Shown piece after piece: positions 33,985 to 63,210 of a stretch of DNA of 64,000 nucleotides (positions are counted from its first letter, which is position 1; each line of letters starts with the position of its first letter). Both the position numbers and the translations under genes were made by a program. The stretch comes from Cinnamomum chago (taxonomy: Eukaryota > Streptophyta > Magnoliopsida > Laurales > Lauraceae). The notes under the pieces were generated by a model. It saw only the letters and a list, made by a program, of their open reading frames with translations. It did not search any database and had not been told where the DNA came from. Location: assembly GCA_038049695.1 (NCBI GenBank), contig CP142452.1, positions 54,518,501-54,582,500 on the forward strand, read 5' to 3'.

Positions 33985-34187
33985 CAGAAACCCAGAGCCG
34001 TGTACATAAAAACGTGCACGGCGACTCCAAGTCGTGCAAAATTTTCTTGCACGGCGTATAAAAAACGTGCAGGTTGCATATGCATGGAGTTTCACAACTG
34101 TGCATATGTGACATGCACGGCTGAGGAAAATCATGCACATCTCATATGCACAGCTAATGAAAACTGTGCAGTTTCAAAGATGCACGT
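33985..34187. repeat. Array of GTGCAC-type short inverted repeats (continues at 37054-37100)
   Basis: GTGCA, TGCAC and GTGCAC words recur about a dozen times in 200 bases, often paired in opposite orientation 8-15 bases apart (CGTGCACGGC near 34014, TTGCACGGC near 34050). Solo LTR F inserted in the middle of it; GTGCAC and ATGTG words continue for about 50 bases on the far side. Confidence 0.7.
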
Positions 34188-37053
34188 TGTTAGACCCCGA
34201 CCCAGACTAAGTCGATTAGTGTGCGATTAGTATGTGTTTAGTCCTAAGTGAGCTTAGTTGTTGTTGGGTTAGAAGTAATTAGTTTTAGTCTTGACATAGC
34301 TTTGGGAATTTTGAGAACGTTCAGTATTAATTAGACACACTCAGGAAGGCCTGAGTGCACGTGTAAGCTTGGGAAGATCGTATCGATTTCCGTGTGAGTG
34401 TGATTTTGATTTCATTTGAATGATGTTTCGACATGTTGCAACTTTCGTTTTAAGCACATTCATGTTTGAAGCCCAAAAACCTATGTTTTGGCCCAAAGAG
34501 GGTAAAATTGTCTTTCTTGCACAAATCTGGACACAATTTTCGAGATCTCAAAATCATGTCAAAATTATACTTTTTGGAAACTAGATATTTCGACGATCGT
34601 TTTATCCTTCTTCGTCGAAGTCATCCGAGGCCCACAAGACCATGTTTTAGTCATTTCAAGTTCAAGCCAAATGGGGCCCTTTGGGTCATCACTTAATGCC
34701 TTTTCCCTCTCTTCCCATTCACTTTACCAAAATCCTGCAACTTCTTAACCTAGGGCAAGGAAGAGTCTCTTTTTCTCTCCATCTTCCCCATCTTGTTTGA
34801 TCTAGCTAGAGAGCTCCAAAGAAGATTTCAAGACTACCATTTTCTTCATCTCCTTGCAAGCTTCCTATTGATACAATCTTCTTGAGGTTTCAAGTTGGGA
34901 AAGCTCTCCATTCTCTCCCATCTCTCTTGTTTGGCCATCTCTAGGTAAGAGTTTCAAACCATGTTTTCCATGAAGTCTTTTTAGTCCTCAAAGATCATGT
35001 TTTTCATATTTACAAACCCTATTTGTAAAATGGGTTTCTTATTTTCAAGCTTGACTGAGTTTTGTGTGTTTTCTTGGTTTTTCTTGTAGTGTGGGATTAG
35101 CTTGTGAGAAGTGCTTGGAGGAGTATTTTTAGCATTTGGGCAAGGCAAGTAATCTCTATAGGACCATCGTGCATGTGTATTTTAAGCTACATTGTTGTTT
35201 TTGGAAATTTTGCATATGAAAATGTTTATAAGCTTCATGATCATGTTTTCCTTGGATTGGATGTTTGGGATTGTAGAAATGTGTATTTTATCCCTTGGAG
35301 AGCATGGAGGCTCAGGGAGTGCAGGTGGAATGAAAAACAAGAAGAAGAGAAGAAGGAAATATGGAAAATCTGCACTGAACTGTACTTCCCGTGCAGTTTC
35401 GGTCAGCTGGCGGCTAGCCGTAATTCCCATTTCGGCTAACCGCGAGCCAACCGAAATCAGCGGTCCCTTTTCCAGTAGCTGACTTTTGCTTCAGGGTCCT
35501 GCGGTCAGCCTTGCGGTTAGCTCACGGCTAGCCGCCAGTTCCCTTGCGGCTAACCGTAAACCAACCGAAATTATTACGGTTCCTTTTCCAGATAGCAACA
35601 TCAGACCTGGGTTTTCAGCGGTCAGCCCTACGGTCAGCTTACGGCTAGCCGCCAGTTCTATTTCGGCTAGCCGCCAACTGACCGCAAGCTGACCGAAATT
35701 GACCAATTCCTAGTTTTGAAGAAGTTTTGCAAGAGTGAAAACTAGAACATGTTAAGTGACCTTTAGCTTGATATTGTGCACTCGAAACCCAAGATGTCTT
35801 TAAACTTCTGGGGCACCAATTTTATTTAATTTCCAACATCTGGGCTTCGATTACACAACGACCATCCAAAGGTCCTTGCTCGTGCTTGATAAGCTTTGTG
35901 TTCGGACTTCGATTTTTGGATATAATGAATATCATCGTGAACGTGTTTTGAAATGTTAGTACAAGCTCGTTTTGAAGTTTTGTTTCAAGAAAAAGGGGAT
36001 CACTCCATAAGCGTGTTATGCATATTAATTATGCCTCTTGCTAGTCGTGCTCGTCGTGTTTTGATAAGTGATTTCCCCCTTTTTATCTTGACGTGTTTTG
36101 ATCGTGCCTTGCGTGTTTTGTGCATTCATGAATTAAGAAAACACCACTGAGCTTAGACTGCCCTTTCGGTTTGATCCGCTGTCTGGGGGTCTTTAAACAT
36201 GTGGACTATCTGCAGACTGGTCGTGTATTTATTACACATCGTGCGTGTCCGGTTCTGCGGCCGGAATTCCCATCTTTGTGGGAAATCGTGTCGTGCTTAT
36301 ATTATGTATATCGTGCTTGTCGTGCGTGCTTGCTCTTTTCATTATATAAATGATAGAGAAATGATGGGCTCTTTGTGGATTGTAACTATTCATGATATAT
36401 TATGTATTCATGCTAGTTTGTTTTGGTATCTCAGCTTGTTCGCATTCTTGAAAATGTACTTCAGTTCTGATAGTATTTCATATCAAGGATTTGTTTATAT
36501 GTTTTCTCTAAATGTTATTATTCATGTTCATGCCTAAATTGATTACCTGCCAAACCGTCGTGTTTGACCCTTGTTTGTTGGTGCCCAGGTGCAGGAGACG
36601 TTACCTTTGAGGAGGAGCGTCAGGAGGAGGCTTGTGAGCCAACCCCTGTGAGAGAGTGGCAGCCCGACGATGTCATCTAGACGTCGGGCGGGGTCTCGAG
36701 TTTCGTCACCTTTTGTCTTGGGTTTCTTTTGTCGTTTAAGGAGTGTATTGGCCTCTATTGGCCTCTCTTGGAATTGTAATAAAACTTAACTTGTTTTAGT
36801 ATTAGTCCTATAACTTGAATATTAATGGGAATGCTTGTTAGCTTCTTTCTTTGATACTATGTTTTGATATTAATTGTCATGAGCACTTAAACATCGTATT
36901 GGTGCTCATCTTGATGTGTTTTGCTACACGCTTCCGCATACGTGATTGTGTGAGTCAGATTCCGCGTGTCTTAGGGAATCCTCACCGCGGGAACCTGTGG
37001 GAAAGTATCATCTACTGCGTCGCGGGCCCGGGATCCGTTCCAGGGTCGCGACA
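34188..37053 (+). mobile_element. Solo LTR F, long-LTR Gypsy family (2866 bp)
   Basis: Starts TGTTAGACCCCGACCC and ends GGGTCGCGACA, flanked by a perfect 5-bp duplication CACGT (34183-34187 and 37054-37058) with no internal region, so it is a solo LTR. It shares its start, a GTCATCCGAGGCCC-like word near 34620, a GAGGAGGAGCGT-like region near 36610 and its end with LTRs G, H and I. A CT-rich leader-like stretch at 34690-34930 precedes a palindrome array. Age unknown, but the four family members are strongly diverged. Confidence 0.88.
35398..35702. repeat. Palindrome array in LTR F (GGCTAGCC motif)
   Basis: Four GGCTAGCC and two GGCTAACC words, plus five CGGTCAGC/CGGTTAGC words and four ACCGAAA words, within 300 bases. 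Motifs come in pairs about 10-12 bases apart with similar spacers (CAGTTCCCTTG, CAGTTCTATT). It starts 1210 bases from the LTR start. Confidence 0.9.
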
Positions 37054-37058
37054 CACGT

Positions 37059-37915: not shown

Positions 37916-39884
37916 GGGACCGTAGTCGTGTTTTGTGGGTGTGAGATGTATTTTTTTGGGGTTGATGGATGTGTTGTGGATGATTTGTATTGTGGATGCA
38001 TTTGTTATGAAGTTTTTGGATTTCAGATGTACTATTTTATGGATTATGGATATACCTTTTTATCAGTTTTTATTAGGGCTGCACAAAAAATCCAGTATCA
38101 CCGCAAGAACGAATCAATCCGAACCGGGTGGTTCGGATCGGCTTTAATGTAGATCGATTCAGTCAATGGTTTGAAAATCATAGAAACTGCCTTACATCGG
38201 TCGGTTAACCGCCTAAACCGAACCGACTATATGTATTAACTTGAGTATTGAGTTTTGATGATTTTAGCCTTAGAGGAAGTGTAGGGACCCAACCTCTTAA
38301 CCCTAGGATTTTTCGCTAGTAATTATATGGTTAGGATTCTAAGTGGATATTAGAGGCCATTTGTAGTGTAATCTGTGTTAGGATAATCTTTGATCAGCTT
38401 TGCGACGTTTTGAGAGTCTCTACGTCTAGTTTGACCTCCCTTTGGAACTGTCTGTGATTTCGTGTGAAACCGGGACATTATTCTTGAATTCTGAAAAAAA
38501 TATTATTTTAATCTCATTTGATCGAGGTCATCATTCCAGACAACCTTTGTATTCAACTTGAATCGATTTGAGACCTAAAACCCTTCGCTTGACAATTTCC
38601 GTCATAATTGATAGGCTTTGACTGGACAATTGACTTTTTCCTTGGAACCCTAAATTGAGTAACTCTTGTGCTCAAAATCTAAATCTCGACCTGCCTAGCT
38701 ACTTTCATTTTCAGCTCGAACTCATCCGAGGCCTAGAAAGCCCAATTTGACCCGGCACTCCTTTCGAGGCAAATACCGTAGTTTGGAAAATATCAGTTCC
38801 TATCCCCGATCTCAGAAAATTATGATTATTGGCTTGTAGGAAAGCCCTTCTCTAGACCTGTAATTCTTCTTCTTTGACTCGATTCGTCCGAGGTCTCGAA
38901 GATCTTCGTTATCGCATCTCAAGTTCGGCCTAGGTGGTAGCAAACTCACATCATAAGCATTGCAAAATATCCCAACTACCACCATCTACCACATTGAATG
39001 CCACCTACCACCACTACTTAACATTACAACTTTTATTCTCAGCTCATTTGCAACCGGCCAGCAAACTTGAGAAAATTTCTCTCTTCCCTCTTCCTTTCTT
39101 CCCTTCTCGTCTCCTTCCATGGCTTGTTGGAGAACATCTTCTCGGAGGCTTTTCTTGTCCGATCCAGTCCGGCTAATCAACTCCCCGTTATCTCTTTCGC
39201 AATATATTTTGTTTTGGTTTGAATCCGACGGTGGCAGTTCCTCATGCAACCACCTTCAATCTTCTTCCTTGATCTACTAAGAAGTAGGCCCTTTTTCTCC
39301 TTAGCTAGGACCCATCTTCTTCTTCTTTGTATTTTCTGTTTTTGGATGTGGTTTTGACTTGTGAGTGGGTTTTTCTTGTTAGGATGGATTTTTGTTTGGA
39401 GAGATAGTTTCCGGTTGAAGCTTGGCTTGACCGAGGTTTGAGGTTTGATTTCGCTTCCAATTAGAGGCAAATATTTAATTTAAATTGCATCCTTTGGATG
39501 GTTAATCTTGATTTGATTTGATCTGTCATGTTAATCTTGTTTAAGGAAATAAATCTGTTTTTGTTTGCCTCTGCCATGATTGGATTTGTTTGGGAAAAAT
39601 CTGATTTCTAATGGTTTAGATTAAATCTGTTTTATGGGTTCATTAATGGAAATATGGATTTTTTCCCCTCTAGCTTTATGAAGCCTGCCCTTACCCATTT
39701 TACTGTGAAACCTCATCGGAAGAGGTCACCCCCATATGCAGGGTCCACCTTGGGGCCCTGCCTCCTTGGATTCAGATCAGCCACATCTGAGGTGGGTCAC
39801 ACCTCAGCCCATTGGTAATTAGGCCCAGAGGCCTTAGCCTTTCTTTCTTTCCTCTTCCTGCTTCCCTCAGCCACTGCTTCTTCA

Positions 39885-40160
39885 CTAAGTCAGCCGCCAT
39901 TGCCCAGTTCTTCTTCTCCTTGCCTTCAGCCCTCCTGCAAATCAGATTAGCCAAGCGGCCATCTTCTTCCCTTGATCCCGCGGCCACAGACAGCCAGCGG
40001 CCACCATTCCCTTGCACCTGTACAGCCAGCGGTCACCCCTCATTTCCCTGCACAGCCCAGCAGCCACTAGCCAAGCCCCTGTCCCACCGGCCAGTCCACC
40101 TGCAAGAGCAGCAAGACTACTCTTGGCCACTTCACTTCCTTCCCTTGCCTTGTAACTCTC
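39885..40160. repeat. GGCC-core array of LTR I, part 1
   Basis: AGCGGCCA, AGCGGTCA, AGCAGCCA and CCGGCCA words recur every 20-40 bases in C-rich sequence with CCCTGCAC spacers. Cut by the insertion of J at 40161. Confidence 0.75.
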
Positions 40161-40824
40161 TGTGTGGGGTCACTTCCTAGTAACAGATTTGTGTGGGGCC
40201 GTCCCCCAATGACGGGATAATCCTTGGCCTCGGTGTCACCCAGCTCGGTAGAAGCGCCAGGTCGGGAAAGCTCGGAGCCCATCTCGGTGACCACGTCTAC
40301 AGGTGCCCACCTCGGTCTCAGCCTTAGCTTGATCTCGGTCCTCCTGTCATTCAGCCATAAATGCAACCATAAATGTAATGTCATGGTGGTAAACGACGAA
40401 CTGACAGAAAGAGTGGGCGTTGGTCCTAGGTAAGTGGCAAGCCTTATCTCGAGGTCACATCCGCAGACATAGGGGAATGGCCCAATGGAACGTTCCCTTT
40501 TTACCTACCTCCACTTAGGAGGGAAAGTACAAGTCGATGGGACTTTCATCTCCCCCTAAGGGGGCCCAGTCTGATGATGACTCTCACGTCTATATAATGC
40601 ATAAAGAAAAACGACGGGAGGTATGCAACAAATCTGCCCTCTATACTCTTTCTTCTTCAGTTACCAAACTAACTCAGGCATTGGAGTGCCTTCGGCTGCC
40701 TACAGCCAGGGGCTCTGACCTTTGTTTTTCCTTTCAGATTCCCAGAGGCAGATCATTTCCCAAAATCGTCAAATCTAGAGTCTAATCCTCTCCCAATCAA
40801 GTCTGTAAATTTTAGGCACTTACA
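40161..40824 (+). repeat. 5' LTR of J (664 bp)
   Basis: TGTGTGGGGTCAC...GGCACTTACA. TATA-like CTATATAATGC at about 40590-40600. About 7% different from its partner at 50632-51294. Confidence 0.92.
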
Positions 40825-40825
40825 G

Positions 40826-40844
40826 TTGGCGCCGTCTGTGGGAA
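40826..40844 (+). other. Primer-binding-like site of J
   Basis: TTGGCGCCGTCTGTGGGAA one base after the LTR. Same class as the site of the left-edge element (454-472). The tRNA used is not assigned. Confidence 0.7.
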
Positions 40845-40845
40845 C

Positions 40846-43800
40846 ATGATCTTTACTAAAACCAAATCTACAAAAGCCATGCCTCCAAAAACCAGGAATG
40901 GTGGCGTGGGATCGTCAAAATCCCGAAAAGCGTCGTCCTTTCCATCACTGGAACAACCACCGTTACCGTTGTTTTCGCGACCAGAGCCGCAGCCTCAGCC
41001 GCTCCAGTCGTTACCTCCAGTGGTAACCACCGGCGCCCACTCTACCCTTCTTCCACTTCCGGGTCCAACGGAGGTTCCCCCGTCCTACAGGAGCTATCGG
41101 CAATCCACCGCCAGAAAAGATCTGGAGGAAAATCCGGTCCCGTGTACGCGGAGGGTGTTTTCCAGTCGGACTCCTCGTCCCGACCTGCGACAGCACTCCC
41201 CCGGCGTGACGACCACCATATGGCTCCTCACCCCCTAGATGATCAGCCACCTAAGGGTCCACGGCAGAATGTTTCCCCGTCGGATCCTCGACGACGAGGC
41301 AAGACCCCTGTTAGGGTAAAATCTCATCACTCCCATTGTCACACTCACAATGATGCTCAGTCCTTTCATCGAGCTCATGAAGAAGATGACCCTCTGCTTG
41401 AAGAACTCAAGGCCCAAAATTGGGTCCTCCAAGAAAAAGAGGAGTTGATTCACCATCTCCAAGAGCAGCTTAAGGCAAAGGAAAGGAGGACCCTTGCCCC
41501 CACCTTTCGGACGACAGCAGAGTCATCCGGACAGTCGAGACTTGAGGCAAGTCCTCAATGACAGAAGAAGAAATCTCTGTGAAGAAGAAGGCTCGAGCAG
41601 CAACCATCTGCGCAGCAACCTCGGGGGGTCGCGTCGCGAGCCGGAGTCCCCAATGCCAGAGAACATCACGGGCCTAAGGGAACTGCTCGACCACTACGTC
41701 AAACAAGAGGTCCAGGCCCGGATGGCTGAGATTGGTTTCACCCGAGACCGATCGGAGGCCTATGATGCAGAAGACCAGGGCATGTCCCCCTTCTCCCAGG
41801 AAATAAAGAATTTCTCCATTCCCGAGAGATTCAGCGTCCCGAGGTTCGTCCTCTATGACAAGACCTCGGATCCAAAATCGTACCTCCGGCATTTCACTCA
41901 GCGGATGTCGGTTTGGGGGGACGGCGGCCACTTGAACTGCAGGGTCTTCTCCTCTAGTTTAGGCGACCTCCCCCTCCGATGGTTCTACGCGCTCCCTAGA
42001 GGGTCGGTCTCGAGCTGGCTGCAACTCCGAAGCTCCTTCGTTGAGAAGTTTCAAGCACGCCGAGTCATCCCGAAGACAGGTGGCAACCTCATGGCGATCC
42101 AAATGAAGGACGATGAAAGCATCACTACATTTGCCAAAAGATTCTGGACGATCTATAGTCAGATCACGGATGCCAAAGATGACATCGCCATCATGTGTTT
42201 TCGACAGGCTTTGCTCCCAGGCAATGAGCTCCGCAAAGGCCTGGTCCGAACCCCCATGACCACGATGAAAGCGCTGATAGCTAAGGTGAATCAATACATT
42301 GAGCAAGAAGAAGACGAAGCTCGAGGCAACGAGCAGTTCGGCCTCCCGCAGAAGGGCCAAACCCCCAGAGGAGAAGGGATGTTCCCCAAACAAAAACCAG
42401 ACAAAAGGAGGGCCACTGCCAGTTCGGCAAACTTCTCAAGCTCCTTCTCTGGAAGCAGCAAAAGGCTGAAGTTCAAGCCTGCCAAGCCGGCTGGTGATTC
42501 CTACAAGGCCGTCAATGTTATCTTCAAGGAACCCATCTACAAACTCCTCGGCAAAATCAAAGCAGAACCCTACTTCCAGTGGCTGCAGCCAATGAAGGGC
42601 GACCCATCCACCCGATACCGGAGCAAGTCCTGCTCTTACCATAAGCAGCACAGACACATGACTGAGGACTGCATGGCCTTGAAATCCCACCTCGAGAAGC
42701 TCGTCAGGGACGAGCACCTTTAGGAATACATCAAGGACGGGGAGAGGATCAACCAAGCTCAACAACACGCCCCACCCAGTGCGGATCATGACAACGACGA
42801 GCCAGCGGGTATCATCAACGTCATTCACCTGGCCCCTGCTCCCAATAAAGGAAGTACCCAAGCCCGCTCAGAGGCCAGGAGGGCCTCCCATGGTAAACAG
42901 GTGATGTCGGTCGAGCTAGAGCCTGCACCGAAGAAAGCTCGGAAGGAAAAGCCCAAGATCTGGTTCTCGGACGAGGACCTAGGAGGAGTCCAGCTCCTCA
43001 ACAACGACGCACTCATCCTCACCCTGCGGTTGAACAATTACACTGTGAAGCGCGTCCTTGTGGACCCAAGGAGCTCGTCCAAGATCCTCTACTTTAGCTG
43101 TTTCAAGCAGCTCGGCCTGTCGGAGTCCGATCTACAGGAAGCCCGCGTCCCCTTGGTAGGCTTCAGCGCAAAGACGGTGTATCCCAAGGGGAGGGTCTCA
43201 CTCGAAGTCCGAATAGGAGGCGCCACAAAGATGGCCGACTTTATGGTGGGGACACACCGTCTCCTTACAATGTAATAATGGGTCGTACTTGGCTACATGC
43301 CATGGAGGCAGTACCTTCCACCTTTCACCAGAAGCTCAAGTTCCCACTAGAGAAGGCCGGAAGGATGATCGAGATAGTAACCATATAGGGAGACCAGCAG
43401 ATGGCCAGACAGTGCCTTACGGCCGTAATGCCTGGCGAAATAGAGCCGCAACAAGTGTATATGGCCGAACTCGAGGACATCGGTTGATCGGCAGAGCAGG
43501 AGAGCATAGAGGAACTAACTGAGGTTAGAATCAATTCTGATGACCCCGAGCGATATTTCTTACTGGGAAGCCAGCTCCCCGACAACGAGAGGTCCGAGCT
43601 GCTCAATTTCCTACTGCAGAATAAGGACGTCTTTGCTTGGACCCCATACGAGATGCCTAGGATCGACCCCAAAGTCATGTGCCACAAACTAAACGTGGAC
43701 CCCGGGCACAAGCCCATAGTGCAAAAAGCCCGCAGAATAGGGGTCCCGCAAACGGAAGCGGTAGTTGAGGAAATGGACAAGCTCCTCGAAGCCGGAGCAA

Positions 43801-46780
43801 TCCACGAAGTGCATTATCCGAAATGGCTGGCCAACACAGTGGTGGTCAAGAAGATGAACGGCAAATGGAGGGTCTACGTGGACATCACCGATCTTAATAA
43901 AGCCTGCCCCAAGGACAACTTCTCGCTCCCGAAGATCGACCAGATGATCAACGCCACCGCGGGACATGATAGGATGAGTTTTCTTGACGCCTACCGAGGT
44001 TACCACCAAATCCCCATGCATGGGCCTGATGAGGAGAAAACCGCATTCATAACACCTCGAGGCATCTTCTGTTACAAAGTGATGCCCTTTGGGTTAAAAA
44101 ATGCTGGGGCGAAATACCAAAGACTGGTTACGAAAATGTTTCAAGCACAGCTCGAGAAGACGGTGGAGGTCTACATCGATGACATGATTGTCAAGTCCAA
44201 AAAGTCGCAGGACCATTTGGCTGACTTGCGCTAGACATTCGCCATCCTCAGAAAGTTCCAGCTTAAACCGAATGCCTCCAAGTGTGCGTTTGGCGTCGGA
44301 TCCGGCAAGTTCTTAGGAAGCCTGGTGACCCGGAGAGGGATCGAAGCTAATCCAGAGCAGATTACAGCAATCCAGGCGATTCAGAGCCCGACCTCGGCGA
44401 AGCAAGTTCAGAGACTCAAGGGGATGGCCGCTGTGCTCAATCGCTTCATCAGCCGAGCTTCGGACAAATGTCGCCCCTTCTTTCAACTCCTGAAGAAGAG
44501 CTCTAAATTTCAGTGGACCCCTGAATGTGATCAAGCACTGGAGAAACTCAAGGACTACCTTTCCTCACCACCACTGTTGTCCACTCCGATACAAGGTGAC
44601 CTCCTTTATCTCTATCTAGCGGTCTCAGACCACGCAGTGAGCTCGGTGCTAGTCAAAGAGGACGGCAAACAACAGCAGCCCATTTACTACACGAGCAAGA
44701 CCCTGCTTGACACTGAGACCAAATACCTTCCACTTGAGAAACTTGCGCTGGCACTCGTCAGTGCCTCTCGCAAACTCTCCCACTACTTCCAGACGTACAC
44801 AGTGGTGGTTGTCACAGAGCACCGCTCAAGTCCCTTTTTCGAAAAGCGGACTTTTCCGGAAGAATCTCCAAATGGGCAGTCGAACTGGGGCAATTCGATA
44901 TCCAATATCAACCCATGACGGCGATCAAAGCACAAATTCTGGCAGACTTCATCGTCGAGTTCACTTCTCCTAGTTCAGCACCGACCTCGCTCGATACCGA
45001 ACTGGGGGGCGATAAGGGCAATGAGGCAGCCGAGACCGACGGATTCCTTGAGTCGGCCTGGAAGGTCTTCTTCGACGGATCCTCGACATCCAGAAGGGCT
45101 GGCGCCGGTATAGTCCTCCAATCTCCAGAGGGCCTCGTCATCGAGCAAGCCCTGACCCTCGATTTCAAAACCTCCAACAATGAAGCAGAGTACGAGGCAC
45201 TGATTGCGGGTCTCAGTAGCGCAAAAATCCTGGGGGCACGTCGGCTAGTAGTCTTTAGCGACTCCTAGTTGGCGACGAACCAGCAAAGCGGAGACTATCA
45301 AGCCTGTGACGAAAGGATGGCAGCCTACTTAGCCCACACAAAGCAGCTCCTCTCCCAGTTTGAGAAAGCAGAAGTCAAGCAGATCGGCAGAGAATCCAAC
45401 TGCCATGCAGACGCCCTCGCCAACTTAGCCTCTGTCGTAGAAGCTGGAAAAAGAAGAACAGTTGACGTGGAGACGTTGAAAAAACCAAGTATAGAGCTTC
45501 TTCCACCTCGGCAAATTCTGTGCGTCGATCTCGGTCCAAGTTGGATGAATCCGATAATAACATTCTTAAAAGAAGATAAACTCCCTGAAGACAAAAACGA
45601 AGCCCACAAGGTCAGAGTGAAAGTAGCTCATTTTTTGCTATCCCCAAATGGGAAGCTCTATAGAAAGTCCTTCACAGGACCATATCTCCAATGTGTCCAC
45701 CCAAGCAAGGTTGAAGACTTCCTTTTTTAAATTCACGAAGGAATCTGCGGAAGCCACATCGGAGGGAGATCACTGACATACAGAGCCATCAGTCAGGGCT
45801 ACTGGTGGCCCCACATGCAGAAGGATGCCCAACTCTACGCCAGGAAATGTGAAAAGTGTCAGAAGTTCTCCCACTCTCTGCACCAACAGGCGCAAGACCT
45901 GAGTCCTCTCTCCAGCCCATGGCCCTTCGCTCAGTGGGGGCTAGACATCGTGGGACCTCTTCACCGGACTCCAGGAAACAAGAAGTGGCTGATAGTAGCC
46001 ACTGGCTATTTCACCAAGTGGATAGAGGCAAAAGCTTTATCCTCCATCACCGAGCGGGATACAAAGAATTTCGTATGGAAGAACATTGTCACAAGATTTG
46101 GGGTCCCCCGAGCTCTGGTCTCGGACAACGGGTCCCAGTTCGACTCCAACTTCTTTAAAAACTTCTGTCAAGAGCTCGATATCAGGAACCTCTATGCAAC
46201 CCCGGCCTAACCACAGAGCAACGGACAAACGGAGATCTCAAATAATGTGGTACTAGACGAACTCAAAAAGAGACTCAACAGAGCTAAAGGCAGATAGGTA
46301 GAGGAACTATCGAGCGTCCTTTGGGCATACAGGACTACCCCGAGACGATCCACTTCAACGACTCCCTTCTCCCTAGCCTACGGGATGGAAGGTGTAATCC
46401 CTCTTGAGGTCGGCCTTTCGACCTTGAGATCGGACTTCTTCGACCAAGGGCGAAATGAAGTAAATCTGGCCAAAGAGCTCGTCTTGGCCAAGGAGCGGAG
46501 GGAAGCAGCATCTGTCCGCCTAGCTTCCTACCAGCAACAGTTATCTAGGGGATACAATCAGAGGGTCAAATAAAGAAAGTTCTCGATCGGGGAACTGGTC
46601 TTAAAGAAAGCGCTCCCAGCAGACAAGGATCCTAACGAAAGCAAGCTCACACCGAACTGGCTTAAACCTTTTAAGGTGATCTCGGCCTCCGGGAGATCGG
46701 CTTATAGACTTGAGAGCATGGATGGTAAAGAATTGTCATGACCGTGGAATGCCGCGCACATCAAGAAATACTACTTCTAA
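40846..46780 (+). pseudogene. gag-pol region of J (fossil)
   Basis: Domains in order: Pro-rich gag N-terminus (MPPKTRNGG, about 40879); gag core with IPERFSVPRFVLYDK, LRWFYALPRGSVSSW and FQARR (41800-42400) and a short Cys/His motif near 42640; retropepsin-like region (about 42960-43260); reverse transcriptase (WRVYVDITDLNKACPKD, YHQIPMH, VYIDDMIVKSK; 43650-44230); first RNase H (44560-44830); a second, archaeal-type RNase H (FFDGSSTSRRAGAGIVL; 45060-45390); integrase zinc-binding end (CEKCQKFSH) and core (WGLDIVGPL, VSDNGSQFD; 45780-46400); integrase tail to about 46780. The double RNase H is the Tat hallmark. Broken in several places. Confidence 0.88.
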
Positions 46781-46860
46781 ATGTACTCAAATGATAAGTC
46801 AATAAAAGAAGGATCTTGTGGAAGACGTGTGCCTTGTCTCTTTCAAGTTGTGAATTAAGG

Positions 46861-47235
46861 CTTCGGTCATAGGACCAGCCTCCTCGAGTTCGGTCGTTGG
46901 ACCAACTCCCAAGCCTCCGGTCACAGGACCAGCCTCCTTGAGTTTGTTCGTTGGACCAACTCCCAAGGCTCTGGTCACAGGACTAGTCTCCTCGAGTTCG
47001 GTCGTTGGACTAACTCCCAAGGCTCCGATCACAGGACCAGCCTCCCGAGTTCGGTCGTTGGACCAACTCCCAAGGCTCCGGTCATAGGACCAGTCTCCTC
47101 GAGTTCGGTCGTTGGACCAACCCCCAAGGGTCCGGCCACAGGACCAGTCTCCTCGAGTTCGGTCGTTGGACCAACTCCCAAGGCTCCGGTCATAGGACCA
47201 GCCTCCTCGAGTTCGGTCGTTGGACCAACTCCCTG
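46861..47235. repeat. 54-bp tandem repeat, seven units, in the 3' region of J
   Basis: Units run from CTCCGGTCATAGGACCAGCC to GTTGGACCAACTCCCAAG and differ by a few bases each. One unit is about a base shorter. Each contains the palindrome-like GGTCGTTGGACC. Lies just after the integrase end. Confidence 0.93.
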
Positions 47236-50231: not shown

Positions 50232-50631
50232 GCAATAACAAAGGTAAGAGAAGAAAGGAGAGAGGGCATCCCTATTTTATAAAGGGATGCACCTCTTAAA
50301 TGTCATGCGTGCGAGGCGACGCTTCGGACTCTCCACGCGTTGCTTCGATCCCAATGAACAACTAGACGAAAGGTGACACGTGGCACCACCGGTTCATCTC
50401 CCACCATAACTCTGGTACATTATTTATCACATCGGGCATACGAAGCGACATCCGCGTGCCCACCTTGGTGGAATAATTATGATATCACATTTATTGCCTA
50501 GGGCAAATGAAACGGCATCATAAAGAGGATCACACGTCAGCAAGGGGCGTCAAGACAGGGGTCAGCACATCCTTTCAATCTTAGCTCCCGACCTCAAAAA
50601 GAATTCTAAGAGGTCGAGAGCTAGGGGCAAT

Positions 50632-51294
50632 TGTGTGGGGTCACTTCCTAGTAACAAATTTGTGTGGGGCCGTCCCCCAATGATGGGATAATCCCTGGCC
50701 TCGGTGTCACCCAGCTCGATAGAAGTGCCAAGTCGGGAAAGCTCGGAGCCCATCTCGGTGACCACACCTGTAGGTGCCCACCTCGGTCTCGGCCTTAGCT
50801 TGATCTCGGCCCTCCTATCATTCAGCCATAAATGCGACCATAAATGCACTATCATGGCGGTAAACAGCGAACTGACAGAAAGAGTAGGCGCCGGTCCTAG
50901 ATAAGTGGCAAGCCTTATCTCGAGGTCACATCCGCAGACATAGGGGAATGGCCCGATGGGACGTTCCCTTTTTACCTACCCCCACTTAAAAGGGAAAGTA
51001 CAAGCCGATGGGACTTTCATCTCCCCCTAAGGGGCCCAGTCCGATGATGACTCTCACGTCTATATAATGCATGAAGAAAAACTACAAGAGGTATGCAACA
51101 AATCTGCCATCTATACTCTTTCTTCTTCAGTTACCAAACTAACTCAGGCATCGAAGTGCCTTCGGCTGCCTACAGTTAGGGGCTCTGACCTTTGTTTTTC
51201 CTTTCAGATTCCCGGAGGCAGATCCTTTCCCAAAATTATCAAATTTAGAGTCTAATCCTCTCCTAACCAAGTCCGTAAATTTTAGGCACTTACA
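50632..51294 (+). repeat. 3' LTR of J (663 bp)
   Basis: Partner of 40161-40824. Preceded by a purine-rich stretch ending AGAGCTAGGGGCAAT. Sequence after 51294 is the GGCC-core array of LTR I. Confidence 0.92.
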
Positions 51295-51959
51295 CTCTTG
51301 ATGACCCTACAGTTGTTGCAGACCGGCCATCCTTTCCTCTCACAGTTCAGCGATCATTCCCCTCAACTGCAAACTCCCGGCCTTTGCTGCCTTTTCCCTG
51401 CACTTAGCAGCCACCTGCGCAACTCCAATCCCAGCGGCCAGGTGCTGCTCCTCCCCCAACGGCTAGGTGCTGCCTCCCTTCCAAGTTCCAGCGGCTTCCA
51501 CTCTTTCTTCCCCTTCTTCTACTTTCTCGACGAACTGCACATAGCAACTCCCCACTTTCTCTCCAGCGGCCACCCAGCAGCCAACATTGCTGTGCCGGCC
51601 ATTCCCTGTACTCAGCCGGCTATTTCTCTCTTCCCCTTGCTGACCGGCCATTCCCCTGCACTCAGTGGCCAGTTTATCACCCTGCAAACTCTCGACCACT
51701 GCTGCCATTTTTCCCTTCCAACAGTTTTCCCCCACCTACAGAGTCACCGGCCATATCCTCTTCTCCTCTTTCAGCGGCCAACTGATGCAAATTCCAGCCA
51801 GCGGCCATCCCTGCGCTTATTCTTCTTTCCAGCGGCTAATTCCCATTTCCACCTGCACTTGTTCCAGCAGCACCTGCACACACTCAGACCAGCGGCCACC
51901 CACTCATCTTCTTCTTGTTCAGCAGCCAGTCCACCTGCATTCTTGCCAGCGGCCACCCA
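51295..51959. repeat. GGCC-core array of LTR I, part 2
   Basis: Continues the array cut at 40160: ACCGGCCATTC, CAGCGGCCACC, CAGCAGCCA and CAGTGGCCA words with CCCTGCACTCAG spacers, at least fifteen in 660 bases. The long open stretch over it (234 codons, + strand) has a repeat-driven composition and is not taken as a gene. Cut by the insertion of H. Confidence 0.8.
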
Positions 51960-52311
51960 TGTGAGGCCCCATCCCTTTGTGGGCCCTCACTTTGATCTCT
52001 AATACTATTTAATAATATGTTAGCTTATTATACTAATAAATGGGTTAGTAAGGGTAGTTATGTATATTTTCCTAAGTTTGAGTTAGATTAGTCTAGTGGT
52101 GTTAGTAATAGAGTTAATAGGGGTCCTTTTGCAATTTATAGGGTTAGTAGTATGTTGGAGGCCTTAGCTAGATATTAGTGTTTACTATAGGGGGTATTCA
52201 CTAAAGAACTCTTCTAGAACCTTCCCACCTAAAGACCTAAATGCCCTCTACCCTAACCCTAATCCCATACAAACAAGAAGGGTATTTTAGACCCTAGCTA
52301 AACCCCCAATC

Positions 52312-52322
52312 TATAAATACAG
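52312..52322 (+). promoter_or_regulatory. Putative TATA box of LTR H
   Basis: TCTATAAATACA followed by a CT-rich stretch about 40-60 bases on. If used, transcription would start near 52345, placing the palindrome array inside the transcribed part of the LTR. Confidence 0.55.
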
Positions 52323-52810
52323 CACATTTCCCAAGCCATCTCTAGCTACTATTCATCTTCTTCATTTCCCCTGTCCTTCCTTTCTTCTAGACCTAGGCTT
52401 TGAGTTGGTTTTGTGCTGGAGAAGACCCTAGGAGCTGGGATTTCATCTTCTTGGATTGGTTCTCTCTTCTCTCTCTCTATAACCTCTCATTTCAACAAGG
52501 CAAGTGCAATATGCTTATTTAACATAGAATGTATGTTTCTATTTCCCTTGATTCTGCAATTTCAGTTCAGTTATTATTCGTGTGATAGATCTACCCTTGA
52601 GCTTAGTTTTGTTGGATTTTGGGCATTGATGGATGGGATTACCCATTTGGAAGATCAATGGCCCGTTTGGGTGTGGATGGTAGTACATTGAAGTGTTTTT
52701 ATGTTTTATATTGATTTAGTGATGTTTGGGCAAGATTGGAGGAGTTTTGGTAGAAAAATGGGTTGAAGGAGAAGAAACCTTGAAATTTGGGTTTTCTGCA
52801 GTTTGCGTGT

Positions 52811-53210
52811 GCCCGGTCGACCGACTTGCAGCCCGGTCGACCGAGCACACTGAAATTGAGAAAACCTAGGTCTCAGTTAAATTTCCTGCAGGCTTTACAA
52901 CCCAGTGTACTCGGTCGACTGAGCCCTGCTCTAGGTCGACCGAGCACACAAGACCTGCAGTGAAAAATGCCTGAGAGCTGGGACATCATTTTTTCCAGGG
53001 TTTCTGTGTATGCGGTCGACCGCCCAGGCCAGGAGGTCGACAGGACACACAGGGAACCACTGAGAACAGATTTTGTCCTCCAGGGCTGACTCAACCTTTT
53101 TCCAGTGCACTCGGTCGACAGACCAGGCCAAGAGGTCGACCGAGCACACTGCACCAGGGTCGACCTGGGGGTCAACCCCCAGTGTACTCGGTCGACCGAG
53201 CACACTGAAT
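52811..53210. repeat. Palindrome array in LTR H (GGTCGACC motif)
   Basis: Ten GTCGAC hexamers in 400 bases, where about 0.1 is expected by chance. Most sit in CGGTCGACCGAG or AGGTCGACCGAG, paired 10-16 bases apart and flanked by AGTGTACT and GCACACTG, which are near inverses of each other. Five such pairs are visible. It starts about 850 bases from the LTR start. Confidence 0.95.
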
Positions 53211-54940
53211 TCAGTGATTTTCCAGTTTTCAGTATTCTGAAGTTGTGATCATTTGTGGGGCCTATTGACCATCCAAATGGACTTCTATTGATGTGCCAAG
53301 CCAGAGTCAATGGTGTGGCTCAACCTTGACTCGTGTGGACCACCAAGTAGGGTCTTGGTTGTTTAATCTAAGATGATTCGATCCTTAAACGTTGTCAATG
53401 ATGCCCGTAACCTCAGGAGCACCAAACACAGTATCCTTTGGCATCTGAAACTCCATTTAGAAATCAAATTGCCTAAGATGGACCTGGACCTGAATGTGGT
53501 CAATTACCTAGGTTGGACTATTGTTATTTTTCCCTATTGATCATATTTGAAGTTCATACTTCACCTTTCTTATTACTGTCACTCTTATATCCTTACTGTA
53601 GTTGTTTACTGTTAATTAAATGGAAATGGATGACCTGAACCTAGGATATCTTAGAGGTGACCCGATAGTGTGATTTAGGAGAACATTGACCCGTGTCTGT
53701 GGCTAGGCGGGCCTTTTATGGCCTAAGTATGGATCTGTTTTACCCTTAGAATTGGAGAGGTGTATGGTATTAGACTTATAACTCATTATGGATAAGAATG
53801 GACTGTTTGTCAGTGGAAATGGACTTATTACCTCGTTTGGACTGTTTTAGACCAGGCCATGTGTTGATGGGCCTAGGTATGGATCCAACGAGTGGGCTTG
53901 GACTTGGATTGTAATCCATGGACTGAGTTGATATTGGAACCTCTTAGAGACATTGTTAGGACCTTGTTCACGCAAGGCAAAGCCTAGACAGACACAGACC
54001 TTTAGAGTTTCCTCGAGTCGGCATAGACATTCACTCGGTTGATTAAAGCTCAGCCTGTAGACTGATCATCCCCGGTAGGAGCTATTTATGAGTATTGAGT
54101 GAGCCATCATGATGAGCTATGTTTTAGACGGACGGTGTGATACCGAATCCAGTCTCCCCAAGTGATGAGTGTGGTGAGACTGTTGAGTGTTTTGCGGGAT
54201 TAGTTATCCCCAACATTGGTGAGATTCCCCGCCGCAACTGTGTTCAATATGGGAGGGCCGCGGCATAATATCCCGCGGTATCCAGCTCATGTGAATGTGC
54301 CATATTGTTTTCGACTAGATGCTATATTTATTCTGATTTCCATATGTTTATTTGCTCAACTGCCTAGATCATGTATCTTGATACTCTTTAACTGTATAAC
54401 TGTCTTTACTCTATTTGATATATATGTCCTATGTTACTTGTATACTGTGACTTGCCAGATCTTTAGATCTGACCCATCTTTGGTGCTTAGGTCTTGACCC
54501 CTAGTACGCGGACGACGCGCTTGCGCTCGTAGAGGCGCCTGTAGCCGGAGATTACGGTTGGGGACTGGCCGACCTAGATGTCGAGCCGGAGGGTGGAGAG
54601 TCATTACCTGGGCTTTGAGAGTTTATCCTTGTTTGGGTTTTGAGCGATTTTGTGGGGAGCTGGGTAGCAGATAATATGTAACTAATCCTTGTTCTTAACA
54701 GTTGATACTTTTAAACTAGACTACAGTTCTGCTCTTATTTGATATATTATGATACTCATTGCTTCCGTTTCAATTCTTATGCTTTCGCAATTTAACTGTT
54801 GTTAATACATTGTTCAAAAGTTTTAAATTTGACCTCACTGCGGACCTACGATCTTGGAAGTTCTCGAATTTTTCGGGAAGTAGCGCGCCAACTTCGGGTA
54901 TTCTGACGATTTTCTTAGTATCCGGAATTGGGGCATTACA

Positions 54941-55430
54941 ACCCACCTGCACAACCAGCGGCCAGTCCCATCCCCTGCATTCAGCTTAGCCAGACCTCTC
55001 CCCTACACTCAGCTCTCGGTCAGTCCCTGCACTCACCAGTGGCCAACTCATCTCCTTGCTTCTAGCCTGTAGCTTCCATGTACTGTTCCTCCCAGCTTAC
55101 AACAGACACCCACAACCACTGTCTTCCACTTGCACTGCAATTCCAGCCACTTGCTTCTCCTTCCACATGCAACTTGCTTCTCCTTCCCTGCCAAGCAGCC
55201 ACCTGCTTCTCTCCCCTCCGCTTGTAACAATTGTCCAGCCCATCTGCCACTTGTCCAGCCCACATGCAACCTGAACCAGCTCTTTCCCTGGTTTCAGCTC
55301 CACCTGAAATCAGTTTCTGCTCTCCTCTTCTTCTTCTTGTTTCGGCTCACCTGAAAATCAGTCCCACCTGATTCATCTCCACCTGAGTTCAGCCCCTTAC
55401 TCTGTACAACTTGGACCAATGGGTTCCACC
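54941..55430. repeat. GGCC-core array of LTR I, part 3
   Basis: Continues after H: CAGCGGCCAGTCC, AGTGGCCAACTC, then weakening towards 55430, with CCCTGCACTCA spacers. Confidence 0.7.
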
Positions 55431-57603
55431 TTAGGACCCGTGGAACCCTACCCTTAGGCCCTGTTTTATGACCATTTGACAACTGAATTTTAATCGGATC
55501 TTAGCCTGATGTAGACCTATTTTCAAACCTTATAGGGATTTCTGAATTTTCGAACCAAAACTTGGATATTTTAACCAATGTTTAAAGGAAACTAATAATT
55601 GCACTCCGACCTGAAAATAGGGGCTTTTGAGTTTAACCCAGGGCAATGCAAAGAGACTGTCTTTTCTTGGAAAAAGAAAGACCGAGACCTAGGGATGAAC
55701 TCAGTACCCCGACTTGCCCGATGAATAATTTATTTCTGTATTTAGACCCGAACAATTATTGATACATGTAGAGCACGGTGATTTGTATTTTTATCTGAAC
55801 TTAGTGGTTGGATATTCCCACCTTTAGAATGCATCAAGCGTATAAAAATACATCAATATCCATCCCTTTGAGCATATAGTTGGGAGAATCATCGTACTTG
55901 CATGTTTATGTTATTTAACTAGACTTGTTGATTTATTGCCTTGCCATTCCGAGTTACCTGGATCACCTTTGTTTTCTGCAACCCGTTTTTGGATCCCTTA
56001 TTTCTACCCGAAATGTTATCCGATTTTCTATAAAATTCCCGGACTTAGAAAGATACTGTCTTGAAATCTATTTTGACTCGTTTTACTGTTTTTAGCCCAA
56101 ATTGAAAAGAATACTATTTTGAAGTCTGCTTTGACCCGTTTTCTATTTTTAACATGTTTTGTCATTTTAAACCTGAACCTGAAAATACCGTCTTGAAAAC
56201 CTGCTTTAACTTGTTTTACTATTTTAAACCTGAAACGAAAAATACTATTTTGAAACCTGCCTTATCTTGTTTTACTATTTTGAGCCTGAATTACGTGGTT
56301 TCATGTTTTAAAAGCCGATTTCGCTTTGTTACGTTTTTAAGCATTCCGATTGTCTGATAACTCCTTGTACTAGCACAAGTATTTTCGAGTAATCGATTTA
56401 TTCATTAATTCTTGATTTATGCACTGAACCATTCATTCTGCATTGATTTTCAAGCGGCACCACCAAGCAGATATCCTGTATTTATTATATATAGTTATAT
56501 ATATATTGCTTGCTGCAGTTTGAGTTCCGATGTGACAGGTGTCACTATAGTACCTTCCCTGATTGGGTTAGACCATTAGGTCCCCCGTAGCAAGGCCTCT
56601 GATTTCTGAACGGCCGTGACTCAAGGGTGAGTTTTTGTGTACTCTCAGTTCTGCTTAGTTAGGGCTAGTGGTTGCTTCCTCCTCCTTGAGTATATGCCAA
56701 GTGGTTGCCAATATTTAATTATTTTAAATTAACTCATGTTTATGATTTGGTAAATCATATTTTCTTGCATCAGTCTGCTCAATTTGTCGGCATTGATTTT
56801 CTGAAATAATCACTACATTTATGTTTATGATTGATAAATCATATTTTCTTACATTAGTCTGCTCAGTCTGTCTGCATTGATTTTCTGAAAATAATCACTG
56901 TATTTATGTTTATGATTTGGAAAATCATATTTTCTTGCATCAGTCTATCTAGCTTCTTTGTTACTGTTTTCCTAATTTATAACTTGTATTTATGTTCTGT
57001 TATGTCTTGCAAACTATGCTCTTTATCTTAAATATTTTCCAGGCTTTTGTCTGATCTACGCTTGATGCCGTAGGTTTGTTTCCCCGACTCGTACCTTAGT
57101 GCGGTTTTCGAGGCGGCGGTTGCTAAGCAGTTAGCGAAGTGTGATTTTTGGGTAAAGGTTGTCATATAGATTCCACCCCTTGCACCTAAGATGCAAAATA
57201 CATAAGAGTATTATTTTAGGGTTTTGTATTCTACTTTACTAACCTGTGTTGGTCTGTTATTCTGGGAATGTAATTAATATATCTTTTGTAATTATAACTT
57301 GAATTCGGGAATAAAATCTCTAATTACTTGTCTAGCTCTGTTTATATTCTGTTATGATGTACCAGTATGAGGATGTATCATTCATATGATTCTGCTAATA
57401 AGACATTAGTGATGCAATACGGAATCCGATGTGCACCGGACTTCGGGTTGTACCACAATGCAAGCTTCCGCTAAATGTTCCATGACGGTAATTGGACCCT
57501 GTAACTCTCACCAATGCGGATCCTGTGGATAAATGAAAGATTGTGCTATAGTAATTCCCCAGTAATGGCTCCTTAATCTTACCCTAATTTTGGGGTCGTG
57601 ACA
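55431..57603 (+). other. Distal part of solo LTR I
   Basis: No coding sequence. Contains triplicated words: ACCTGAAAATACCGTCTTG-like units at 56060-56290 and TTTATGATT(T)G.TAAATCATATTTTCTT units at 56730-56940, each about three diverged copies. Ends at the GGAAG duplication. Confidence 0.7.
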
Positions 57604-59605: not shown

Positions 59606-60124
59606 AAAAAAAAATTGAACAATGTGCCAAAAACAGGATACATTCTCTTCATAGATGGTCATTTGGTTCATATTGGGGATGACTTCTCTAAAACACAATG
59701 TGGTGCCTAAGATTGAGGTGTGGTAGCTTACATGGGAAAATGGAAAGATGGGTTGGGAGATCAGCTCTTCCAAGAGCTAATAGTTGGAGCTTTATGATGA
59801 TGAGAAGAAAAAGAAGTATAGTGATGAAGGGAAAGAAGTGCAGAAGAGGATTCTATTCTTGTCAGGAGCATCAAGTAGTTCAGAGGGAAGAAGAAGAAAT
59901 CGGCTAAAGAGGAAGATGTAGTCTTGGTACTTCTGGTATTTCACATTTGGGTATTTTGCTAACAAATTTTTTTTTAAATGGCAAGTTAATGGGTGCATTT
60001 AAAATTGGGAAGTTCTACTGGCACACAGTTTTTTACTTTTCACATACAAATTCTCTCTACACACATCACTATAATTTAAAAATTACATTAGATCTTTTCA
60101 CACACACCATAATTTTCCATACTA
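59606..60124. other. Purine-rich tract and A/T-rich flank
   Basis: GAAGAAGA-rich from about 59780 to 59920. Then a GGGAAGTTCTACTGGCACAC word at 60008 that may be the left end of a MITE-like unit. No gene seen. Confidence 0.35.
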
Positions 60125-63100
60125 CCCGTGCACGTGATTTCCCACAGGTGTCTGCGGTGAGGATATTACATCAACATAAAATATATTTAGTTAACTGTGG
60201 AAGCATGTAGCAAATCTAATTCACACATTCATATCCAAAATAGCAAGACTGATAACACATTTATATAACAGAATATCAGAGTGAGCAATGATCATTAGTA
60301 CTATCCCCAAAAGTAATGTTAAAGTTTATACAAAAGATCAATTAGTTTTTCACTCCCCAAAAGAATAAAGGCCAACATAGGCCAATACATCTCAAAACAA
60401 TAACCCAAAAGAATGGTTAATCACGATCCCCAAAATGTGACGTAACTCAAACAACCGAATGTCTAGACGATATCATCGGCATGCCACTCAACTAAGCGAT
60501 GCGGTTCACCGACCGCCTCCTCAAGCTCCGTCTCGAGATAGACAATGTCTGAACTTGAGTACCAAAGAAATGGACCAGACACGACTGTTTGGCAGGTGGG
60601 TGAAAGGATATAACAATATAACATAAATTGAATTTACATTGGAAAACATTTAAACCTGTTTAAACAATAAATTCCATGGAAGAATTAATTCATTTATTCA
60701 AAACATATATATAGTGTAAAACAAGTAAAGGTAACCAAGCAATTGAAAAACAAGTAAGATGACAACCACACGAAGCTAAGTCATCTATCACCGAAGTGAC
60801 AAGAGCATATCGATGCGTTGATCTCAGTCACACGAGGTGAGGAGATTCAACAAAATATACATATATATAATAATACGGGACATGACCACGGTATCGAGCC
60901 GAGCATCAGGAACCACAGTAGCAAGCTGGGGTATCGGGACAAGACAACGGTAATAAATCGGGTAGCGGAATCCAAACTACAACTGGCGGGACAAGAATGG
61001 GATCTCCAAGTCGGTGGATCAAACCGACAAGGTTATCCAAGCTTAGTGGTGCCGACTCATAGGTCAAATAACAGAATTAAGACATGTATAAAATACATCA
61101 AGTGCAAGTATATAAACGGGCATGATGGGAGTGCTCAAAGGCACAATTATTACTTCAATTCGGGCATGCACATTGGGGCTAGCAAAATGCTACAATTGCA
61201 ATTTCAATATTTTCGGGAACAATGAAATACTAATGAACTTTCGAAATCTTAAGACAAATATCGGGGTTCAAGACTAGTTCAAGGTGAATAGGGATCCCGT
61301 ATGTCAATATCAATAAAGACTTGGTACTCCTTGAGTTTGGGGATATTTCGGGGTCTTTATACACCTCGATGAATTTAAAAACTACAATTGATCCTTGTGA
61401 AGTGGTTTCTTTCTCAAATGGGCTTCATGCATCGTTTCTTCATACCTCCATTTCATCGGGGCTCTCAACAAACCTCTCCTAATCATTTAAACATTTCATT
61501 TTTACTCTCAAGATAGCCCCAGGTGAACAGTACCCATCACTCGAGCGGACCTGGAGTTCGCTCGAGAGGTAAGCTCTCTGGAATGATTTTCTGGGTGGGT
61601 TCGCTTGAGCGAACTCATCCAGTTCAGGTTGGCTCGAGCGAAATTTCACTTCGCTCGAGCTAACCATTCTCTGGAATGAGTTTTGGGAGAGTTCGCTTGA
61701 ACGAACTGTCCACTGGAAGGGTTCGCTCGAGCGAAGGACTGTCCAGAACTGATTCTGAGGACAGTTCTGCTCACCCCTTTCTCATCCTTTTACAACCCCC
61801 TTTGAGCCCCATTTCTACACCAAATAGGGAACTCAAAACTTCTTCAAACCATCATCAAATCTTTTACAACATCCACCCCAACCACCTCCATTCATTTCAC
61901 ATTCGATAAAAAAGAGAGAGAGATGGGAAACCACCACATACAAGAATACATTTGAGCTATAAACAAGAGATAAATGAAGGCTATAAACCAACATATTACC
62001 AAGACATTAAATGCACTAATAAAACTCTTTCATGAGCATTTATTTCAAATCGATGCAAATAAATAAACATGAATGAAAACTACAAAACCAACCACATTTC
62101 TTATAAAGCCATTTAATGCTCAAACTATCCATTCATCCACTTGCCTTAGTTCCAAGCTTAGCCAAAACAAGCTCTAATCACTCTTCCAAACCCAAGATTC
62201 AAAGCTACAAGAAAAACCCCCAAAACAAACCCTAAAAGGGTTAAACCAATGAATGGGGGAAGGAGAGGCTTCAATAGTGAAAATGAGGACTCCTATAGGC
62301 TAGGAAAACACAATATCAAAAGATGGGATTGATTACTTACATGAGAGTTCTTCAAAGACACAAGATTAGTTCAAGGAAGGTCTTGGGACGGAAGGTTTCC
62401 TCCACAAATAATATCAATAGAGAGCTTTAGTAGAAATGAAGAAGATGATGATCTTTACTTTGATATTGGTGCTAGTTTGGCGGGGATATGGAGATGGAAG
62501 AGCAAGGAAAAGAAGAGGGAAGAGAAACCCTAGCTTGGGGTTTGGTTTGAGCTGAAAAAAGGGAAAAAAAAGGAAGAAAGGTCTCTTTTTTATAACAAAT
62601 GAGATGGGCTCCACCACTTGAAATTCTTATGGGGCTGAAATCATGGCTTTCGGGACCTCGGATGAGTTCGACGAAGAAGGGAAAAACGATCGTAGAAATT
62701 TCTAATTTCTAAAAAGTATATATTTCAAGGGTTTCGGGAATATCAAATCTTGGGTACAGATTTAGTGTAAAAAGACTGTTTTGCCCTCAATGCTAGGAAA
62801 GTCGGGTTTCGGGGTTCCGGACAGGAACGGGATCAACATAAAAGTTGAAGAGATTAACAAGATAAATAAAAACGGGGTTAAAATATAAATCATAGGAATC
62901 TCAGAAAATCCCCCAAGTAAACGCAAAATCACAAAAGGAACCCCCAAAGGGTCCCACTAAGTATAATGGTACTCAAAATTCCCCAAAGCTATAACAAAAG
63001 CTACTCTAATATCAACTTAACCAGCATTCACTAATCACGCTTAGAACTAACACACGACTTAATCAGTACTAATCGAGGTCACTCGGGTCAGGGTCTTACA
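60125..63100 (-). mobile_element. LTR G of the long-LTR Gypsy family, minus strand, one end missing
   Basis: Read on the minus strand it starts TGTAAGACCCTGACCCGAG at 63100, like F. It shares the TCATCCGAGG word (near 62660), the region TCATCTAGAC/TCGTCTAGAC (near 60470), TATTGGCCT (near 60390) and ATCCTCACCGC (near 60160) with F in the same order. The last 40 or so bases of the LTR are not found, so one end is lost. TATA-like TTATAAAAAAG on the minus strand near 62590. Single LTR, no internal region in the window. Old. Confidence 0.8.
61536..61736. repeat. Palindrome array in LTR G (GCTCGAGC motif)
   Basis: Five CTCGAG hexamers and two close variants (CTTGAG, CTTGAA) in 200 bases, mostly within TTCGCTCGAGCGAA. 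Adjacent motifs are paired across short spacers. A CTCTGGAATGA word precedes two of the pairs, suggesting unit duplication. About 1360-1560 bases from the LTR start. Confidence 0.93.
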
Positions 63101-63104
63101 GTCT

Positions 63105-63210
63105 TAAAGGTCCGAACAAATGACATATGTTCGGAACTATAAGTCCGAATAGATGCATTATGTTCGGAACTATACATCCGAACATATGCCATCTGTTCGG
63201 CCCTAAAAGA
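63105..63210. repeat. Three tandem hairpin units TCCGAAC-N11-GTTCGGA
   Basis: Three units about 34 bases apart, each an inverted repeat TCCGAAC ... GTTCGGA with an 11-base loop (63111-63135, 63145-63170, 63177-63201). Directly adjoins LTR G. Confidence 0.9.

Follow-up and report, generated by a model that had tools for sequence, protein, structure and literature searches.

Arrays of paired palindromes, candidate stem-loops, in several LTR families of Cinnamomum chago

Repeated palindromes in long terminal repeats (LTRs) have been described for the Sireviruses, which are Ty1/Copia elements. According to Bousios et al. (2010, PMC2829016), in the part of the paper used here, Sireviruses carry RM boxes, i.e. 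palindromes present in several copies within the LTR; each element has a single consensus, which differs from those of other elements. The paper reports RM boxes from 13 Sireviruses, and the classic Copia elements used for comparison have none. They occur in at least eight copies per element and cluster shortly upstream of the TATA box, and 12 of the 13 RMs have a CGG-CCG core signature. Small-RNA hot spots at maize LTR palindromes are cited in PMC10760457 and PMC5311732. According to the excerpt of PMC10760457 used, an obvious peak of such structure is generally absent from maize Ty3 elements. Arrays of short motifs are also found in VANDAL transposons, where, according to sections of PMC5735166, VANC proteins bind motifs in non-coding parts of the element; related elements have different arrays, and these turn over in the manner of repeats. 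Finally, the RNA of yeast Ty3 dimerises through a 5' palindrome (PMC11381356, in excerpt).

Here, LTRs with paired palindromes are described from Cinnamomum chago. A preliminary description of the locus knew of no LTR feature like its motif arrays, a statement overtaken by the Sirevirus arrays described in PMC2829016. The RM boxes are the closest known feature, and the arrays found here are probably a Gypsy variant of it. A search of titles and abstract openings in the open-licence literature returned no description of such arrays in Gypsy LTRs, which is weak evidence of absence.

Palindrome arrays of separate LTR families

Four LTRs of the window, i.e. of the whole stretch of 64,000 nucleotides that was analysed, are named F, H, G and I here (Table 1). 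Based on the order of its predicted domains, the F element is a Ty3/Gypsy chromovirus, F alone having been examined for coding domains. In one F element, matches to an integrase zinc-binding domain (E 1.5e-18) and a Tf2-1-like SH3 domain (1.7e-27) lie upstream of the 3' LTR; the integrase core and Chromo matches of the same search are weaker and below the Pfam cut-offs. We take Tekay/Del to be the lineage name for chromovirus elements such as F. A primer site, TGGTATCAGAGC, follows the LTR at 10 of the 30 F-family loci, and a purine tract, AGGGGTGGAGGA, precedes it at six of these 30. Both signals are present in a full-length relative of H, and a relative of G has the purine tract before its 3' LTR, each in the orientation used here; no primer site was found within the 100 bases read at the G 5' LTR. 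The longest reading frame across five LTR stretches is 150 aa.

Table 1. Positions of the LTRs and their arrays in the window
Feature	Position	Strand	Remarks
LTR F (Ty3/Gypsy chromovirus family by predicted domain order)	34188..37053	+	solo in window; TG..CA ends; TSD CACGT
F array, three predicted hairpin units	35400..35684	+	fold z -9.26
F predicted hairpin arms	35400-35420/35433-35453, 35514-35534/35547-35567, 35631-35651/35664-35684	+	
LTR I	38280..57603	+	TG..CA ends; TSD GGAAG; interrupted by Gypsy element (40161-51294) and H
I word array, C/T-rich, word CAGCGGCCA	39861-40160, 51295-51959, 54941-55400	+	no palindrome pairs
LTR H, inserted in I	51960..54940	+	solo in window; TG..CA ends; TSD ACCCA
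H array, core GGTCGACC	52807..53208	+	fold z -9.96
H units	~52807-52850, 52905-52949, 53006-53050, 53105-53149	+	
H array end	53154-53208	+	single palindrome, then loop-less unit
LTR G	60120..63100	-	5' end at 63100; 3' end approximate
G array, units with core GCTCGAGC	61522..61752	-	fold z -7.55

The preliminary description assigned the four LTRs to one Gypsy family with copy-specific motifs. In the window comparison, F and G have one stretch in common (about 150 bp, 78%), and neither H nor I matches any of the other three at thresholds of E 1e-10 and 80 bp. The idea of four motifs within one family was therefore rejected: F, H, G and I represent different families, and the motif goes with the family and not with the copy.

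Based on whole-LTR similarity, 60 LTR copies (30 F, 15 H and 15 G) were read from the genome (1.06 Gb, 14 contigs); they are nearest relatives and no random draw, and among the 30 F LTRs six pairs lying 7.7-10.3 kb apart look like the two LTRs of one element. An array is present in all 60 (30/30, 15/15 and 15/15). The exact 8-mers never mix, with counts in F, H and G copies of 110, 0 and 0 for GGCTAGCC, 0, 120 and 0 for GGTCGACC, and 0, 0 and 60 for GCTCGAGC. As the preliminary description had expected, most copies thus carry the array, and the motifs are discrete between families; its claim of a single motif per array holds in that F, H and G do not mix, and fails in that F arrays also contain the variant or partial cores CGGCTAACCG and CGGTCAGC. 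The architecture it saw as kept while the motif is replaced wholesale is found between families. The place it called fixed is only loosely so, the arrays starting about 1212 (F), 853 (H) and 1349 (G) bases into the LTR. Separate insertions with ends of their own, which it had named as a refutation, were rejected since the flanks are collinear in the aligned copies.

Of the motif arrays it had claimed for four LTRs, those of F, H and G stand, each with one repeated palindrome. I was rejected as a fourth palindrome array: the word of its C/T-rich array forms no palindrome pairs and, in the window pieces and L059-L061, occurs 28 times forward and never in reverse. The Gypsy element and the solo LTR H, which interrupt LTR I, are located within or next to this word array. 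The Gypsy element has LTRs of 0.66 kb and contains seven copies of a 54-base tandem repeat (window 46857-47233). A stretch of about 1 kb at 29730-30738 of the window is made up of degenerate A/T-rich tandem repeats, their basic period being close to 20 bases.

Exact 8-mers occur 4 (F), 8 (H) and 5 (G) times in the window, against 0.25-0.38 expected; outside the arrays there are one GGTCGACC (position 9519) and two GCTCGAGC (8 and 41591). Genome-wide, exact pairs 2-32 bases apart number 4,480 for the F core, 36,705 for the H core and 16,231 for the G core, versus 1, 62 and 127 for the respective reversed words, and the spacers among the genome pairs listed include many further families beyond F, H and G. 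The LTR palindrome-pair array shared within a family is real, abundant and present in several LTR families.

In the F copies, the array is conserved to about the same degree as the remaining LTR, mean pairwise identity being 0.948 in the array versus 0.912 before and 0.943 after it. Unit number is variable in both H and G, as predicted by the proposed turnover through duplication and deletion. Two further observations concern the arrangement of arrays and LTRs. At about 655-690 of the reverse complement of junction L066, an F-related array with F-type cores ends beside a G-core-like word, CGCTCGAACGAACTCTTCGAGCG, two motif types adjoining. On contig C1, 18 F-type LTR/primer-site junctions follow head-to-tail every 7745 or 7873-7874 bases (39289321-39421779), and nine other such junctions are found at multiples of about 6030 bases (36922294-36982632), which gives the impression of tandem multiplication of LTR-internal units.

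Unit architecture and predicted folding

A unit consists of two inverted arms separated by a spacer of about 10-15 bases; each arm comprises a core of 8-10 bases and an outer flank. Examples are CGGTCAGCTTA-CGGCTAGCCG-N13-CGGCTAGCCG-CCAGCTGACCG for F, GTGTGCGC-GGTCGACC-N13-GGTCGACC-GAGCACAC for H (L032) and GGTTA-GCTCGAGC-GAAGTGAAATTTC-GCTCGAGC-CAACC for G (window). With mismatches allowed, 6-7 (F), 10-15 (H) and 7-12 (G) cores are present per LTR, compared to 0.2, 2.9 and 1.1 in shuffles. Complementarity of the arms extends beyond the cores: in the outer 12-base flanks, 8.64 (F), 7.24 (H) and 6.12 (G) positions match across the unit, versus 3.26, 3.57 and 3.18 after shuffling and 3.2-4.3 for symmetry about each core. 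Flank symmetry thus centres on the unit and not on single cores. A preference of outer flanks for their own partner is at the permutation maximum in H (2/120), weak in G (8/120) and absent in F (3/6). For the inner spacer the own-partner excess has p values of 0.11 (H), 0.012 (G) and 0.76 (F), among the matches listed (50 H, 50 G and 31 of 50 F, plus-strand); as this excess is not general, inner-spacer pairing was rejected as a rule.

The distance between the two core centres of a pair is mostly 22-23 (F), 20-21 (H) or 20-22 (G) bases. Among the matches listed from the start of contig C1, with 10-40 bases allowed, centres lie 19-23 apart in 43/50 H, 40/50 G and 48/50 F pairs, and G arrays also show steps of 29-30 and 42-43 bases. 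Such regularity is what DNA sites would give, the palindromes binding a dimeric protein and paired sites about two helical turns apart binding cooperatively, with a regulatory or anti-silencing role and a family-specific sequence. Most cores are near-perfect palindromes, the G steps fit as well, and inverted protein sites are complementary anyway. VANC proteins and their element-specific arrays offer a precedent (PMC5735166, in part), as do the Sirevirus motifs upstream of the TATA box (PMC2829016, in part). The centring of flank symmetry on the unit speaks against such sites, and we consider them somewhat unlikely.

Our own, tentative reading, held with slightly less than even confidence, is that the arrays of F, H and G each form a series of stem-loops maintained by selection. 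Hairpins require neither palindromic cores nor constant spacing, and both features count against them. As for predicted folding, the lowest z among 300-base tiles of five LTRs is always that of a tile over the array, where sense values are -9.4, -8.6, -3.5, -10.7 and -9.0 and antisense values -11.6, -10.3, -6.6, -11.8 and -12.2, the other tiles reaching -5.3 at the most extreme. The sense value of only -3.5 belongs to L030, of an F subfamily.

The antisense strand folds better in 59 of the 60 copies, with a mean excess over shuffles of 9-12 kcal/mol that is positive in 29/30 F, 13/15 H and 14/15 G copies. Across these copies, arm mismatches lean to A-C in sense, equal to G-U in antisense, the A-C to G-T ratios in sense being 228:19 (F), 116:46 (H) and 88:52 (G). 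The array tile of L029 has no antisense excess. At the site level in F, the G>A versus C>T asymmetry between stems and outside is not significant (p 0.27), C>T alone being rarer in stems (5/47 versus 131/468 outside, p 0.009), and H and G cores show no such asymmetry. Antisense RNA as the selected molecule was accordingly demoted to a lead. A CpG tally (28 vs 53, p 0.007) was dropped because it relied on loose core matches with chance hits.

Co-change of facing arms in the H2 subfamily

Since a palindrome array folds in any case, the distribution of changes was taken as the test. Six further LTR junctions were chosen for their differing linkers, not at random; three have such units (L066, L067 and L069) and three do not (L068, L070 and L071). 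L069 led to H2, a relative of H with 40 scored places at 89% or more, 11 of which were read. Four of the 15 H copies (L035, L037, L039 and L043), in which a unit is missing or truncated, are left out of the alignment used (A3); one H row of alignment A2, which held other units, was not reused.

In the first H2 unit, GGTTGATC faces AATCAACC (six copies) or AATCCACC (five copies; n=11). In the neighbouring unit, GGTCAATC (ten copies; GATCAATC in one) faces GTTTGACC (nine) or ATTTGACC (two). The cores are no longer palindromes in any of the 11 copies, and the arms still largely pair; in L076 the first unit folds into a stem of 10 plus 4 bp that closes a 6-base loop. When 11 H rows are taken together with 11 H2 rows, both partners have changed in 6 of the 32 cross-arm pairs (32 cells), compared to 1-3 pairs and 1-12 cells in slid controls and to 0 of 16 pairs for a within-core structure. 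Column shuffles reach six both-side pairs in 29 of 500 cases and never 32 cells, and the number of pair types, 12 vs 16.9, is below every shuffle. From H to H2, five facing pairs changed on both sides, two on one side and 25 not at all (Fisher 1e-4). Three of the five co-changed pairs stay complementary and two end non-complementary; one further pair is broken in 5 of the 11 H2 copies. Facing positions thus changed together at the sequence shift in the H lineage. The covariation of paired bases, which the preliminary description had proposed to check, is supported across arms. The both-side changes stem mainly from one lineage split, H/H2, which counts against the hairpin reading, as do the non-complementary and broken pairs and the low number of pair types.

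In the two H2 units the new sequences differ, and each fits its own partner; a shift in the specificity of a single protein would not predict this. It is likewise unexpected for DNA sites that the loss of the core palindromes is fixed although most of the arm pairing persists. As far as sequence comparison goes, the H2 pattern favours a hairpin array over independent dimer sites, the constant spacing speaking for the latter, and putative hairpin pairing is supported by this one clear subfamily case. Of the roles suggested in the preliminary description, RNA hairpins hence gain support from the pair-specific co-change; sites for a dimeric protein fit the 19-23 base spacing and do not fit the H2 cores.

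Its third suggestion, a by-product of template switching, is retained as a rival, and an unlikely one. Here inverted repeats would be made and corrected by template switching in reverse transcription and spread by unit duplication, with no selected role. Template correction would likewise copy a change from arm to arm, the varying unit number in H and G is as expected, and some units are loop-less palindromes, as deletions would give. Against it stand the constant spacing, the presence of the array in all 60 copies of three families at a similar place, and the few A>G/T>C changes in H cores (2 over 27 sites vs 173 over 267 other sites), a deficit that also speaks for hairpins and that G cores do not show.

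Possible roles and comparison with known systems

If the arrays are selected stem-loops, the folded molecule would be the RNA of the element or its minus-strand cDNA. As a cis-acting structure, the stems would serve the genomic RNA in its packaging, dimerisation or translation. Duplication, deletion and conversion of units would explain why a single motif fills an array. Any function of the arrays is one that we infer from sequence. In H, a TATA-like word at 353, the predicted TATA box, lies about 500 bases before the array, which would place the array in the transcript. In G, TATA-like words are found on both sides of the array, at 507 and 1740, and F has none before it. A GC-type splice donor-like word, AAGGCAAGT, lies 250-390 bases before the array, at LTR positions 958 (F), 956 (L030), 541 (H) and 957 (G), and the I stretch that was tested lacks it; in F, L030, H and G the array may be spanned by an intron.

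Since Ty3 RNA dimerises through its 5' palindrome, RNA pairing is a reasonable first guess for the function. As in Ty3 and retroviruses, the palindromes here may lie near the 5' end of a Ty3/Gypsy-type RNA, and CTGCAG or GGCC is found in the loops of some H units; by eye, no regular palindrome stands out in those of F and G. Unlike the single short palindrome that PMC11381356 (in excerpt) describes as exposed at a hairpin tip and required for dimerisation in vitro, the many palindromes here form stem arms, the cores lying in stems in the predicted folds of the window arrays. The VANDAL arrays are alike in consisting of short motifs that differ between related elements; VANC motifs are non-palindromic and in one orientation (PMC5735166, in part), whereas F, H and G have palindromes in inverted pairs.

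The likeness to Sirevirus RM boxes extends from the repeated LTR palindrome with one consensus per element to the motifs themselves. Among the motifs given in PMC2829016 (in part), that of Vitis, CGGTCGACCG, is identical to the H core, and that of Citrus, AATCCGGCTWRCCGGATT, includes the F core CGGCTAGCCG; the CGG-CCG signature is found in F and H and not in G (CGCTCGAGCG). Unlike RM boxes, the arrays described here belong to Ty3/Gypsy chromovirus elements instead of Ty1/Copia, as judged from the one F element with coding evidence, their cores stand in inverted pairs, and the H array is downstream of the predicted TATA box.

Two further readings touch on this shared vocabulary and on host silencing. 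Multivalent palindromic hairpins might serve as self-recognition tags that pair RNAs or minus-strand cDNAs within one lineage and not with co-resident relatives, the tag being replaced wholesale at a lineage split; Gypsy elements here and Copia Sireviruses elsewhere would then have converged on the CGG-CCG vocabulary. This idea is speculative and we consider it improbable. Even less probable is that the hairpins mainly trigger small-RNA silencing by the host, as a cost and not a tool of the element. Maize Sirevirus small RNAs are in excess at the palindrome-rich LTR region (PMC10760457 and PMC5311732, both in part), and a small-RNA trigger alone leaves unexplained why elements keep the array.

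With these arrays, a feature known from Copia Sireviruses is extended to Gypsy elements. Pair-specific co-change together with spacing gives a comparative test between hairpins and DNA sites, and with tens of thousands of units and several motif types in one genome, C. chago offers material for testing what LTR palindromes do.
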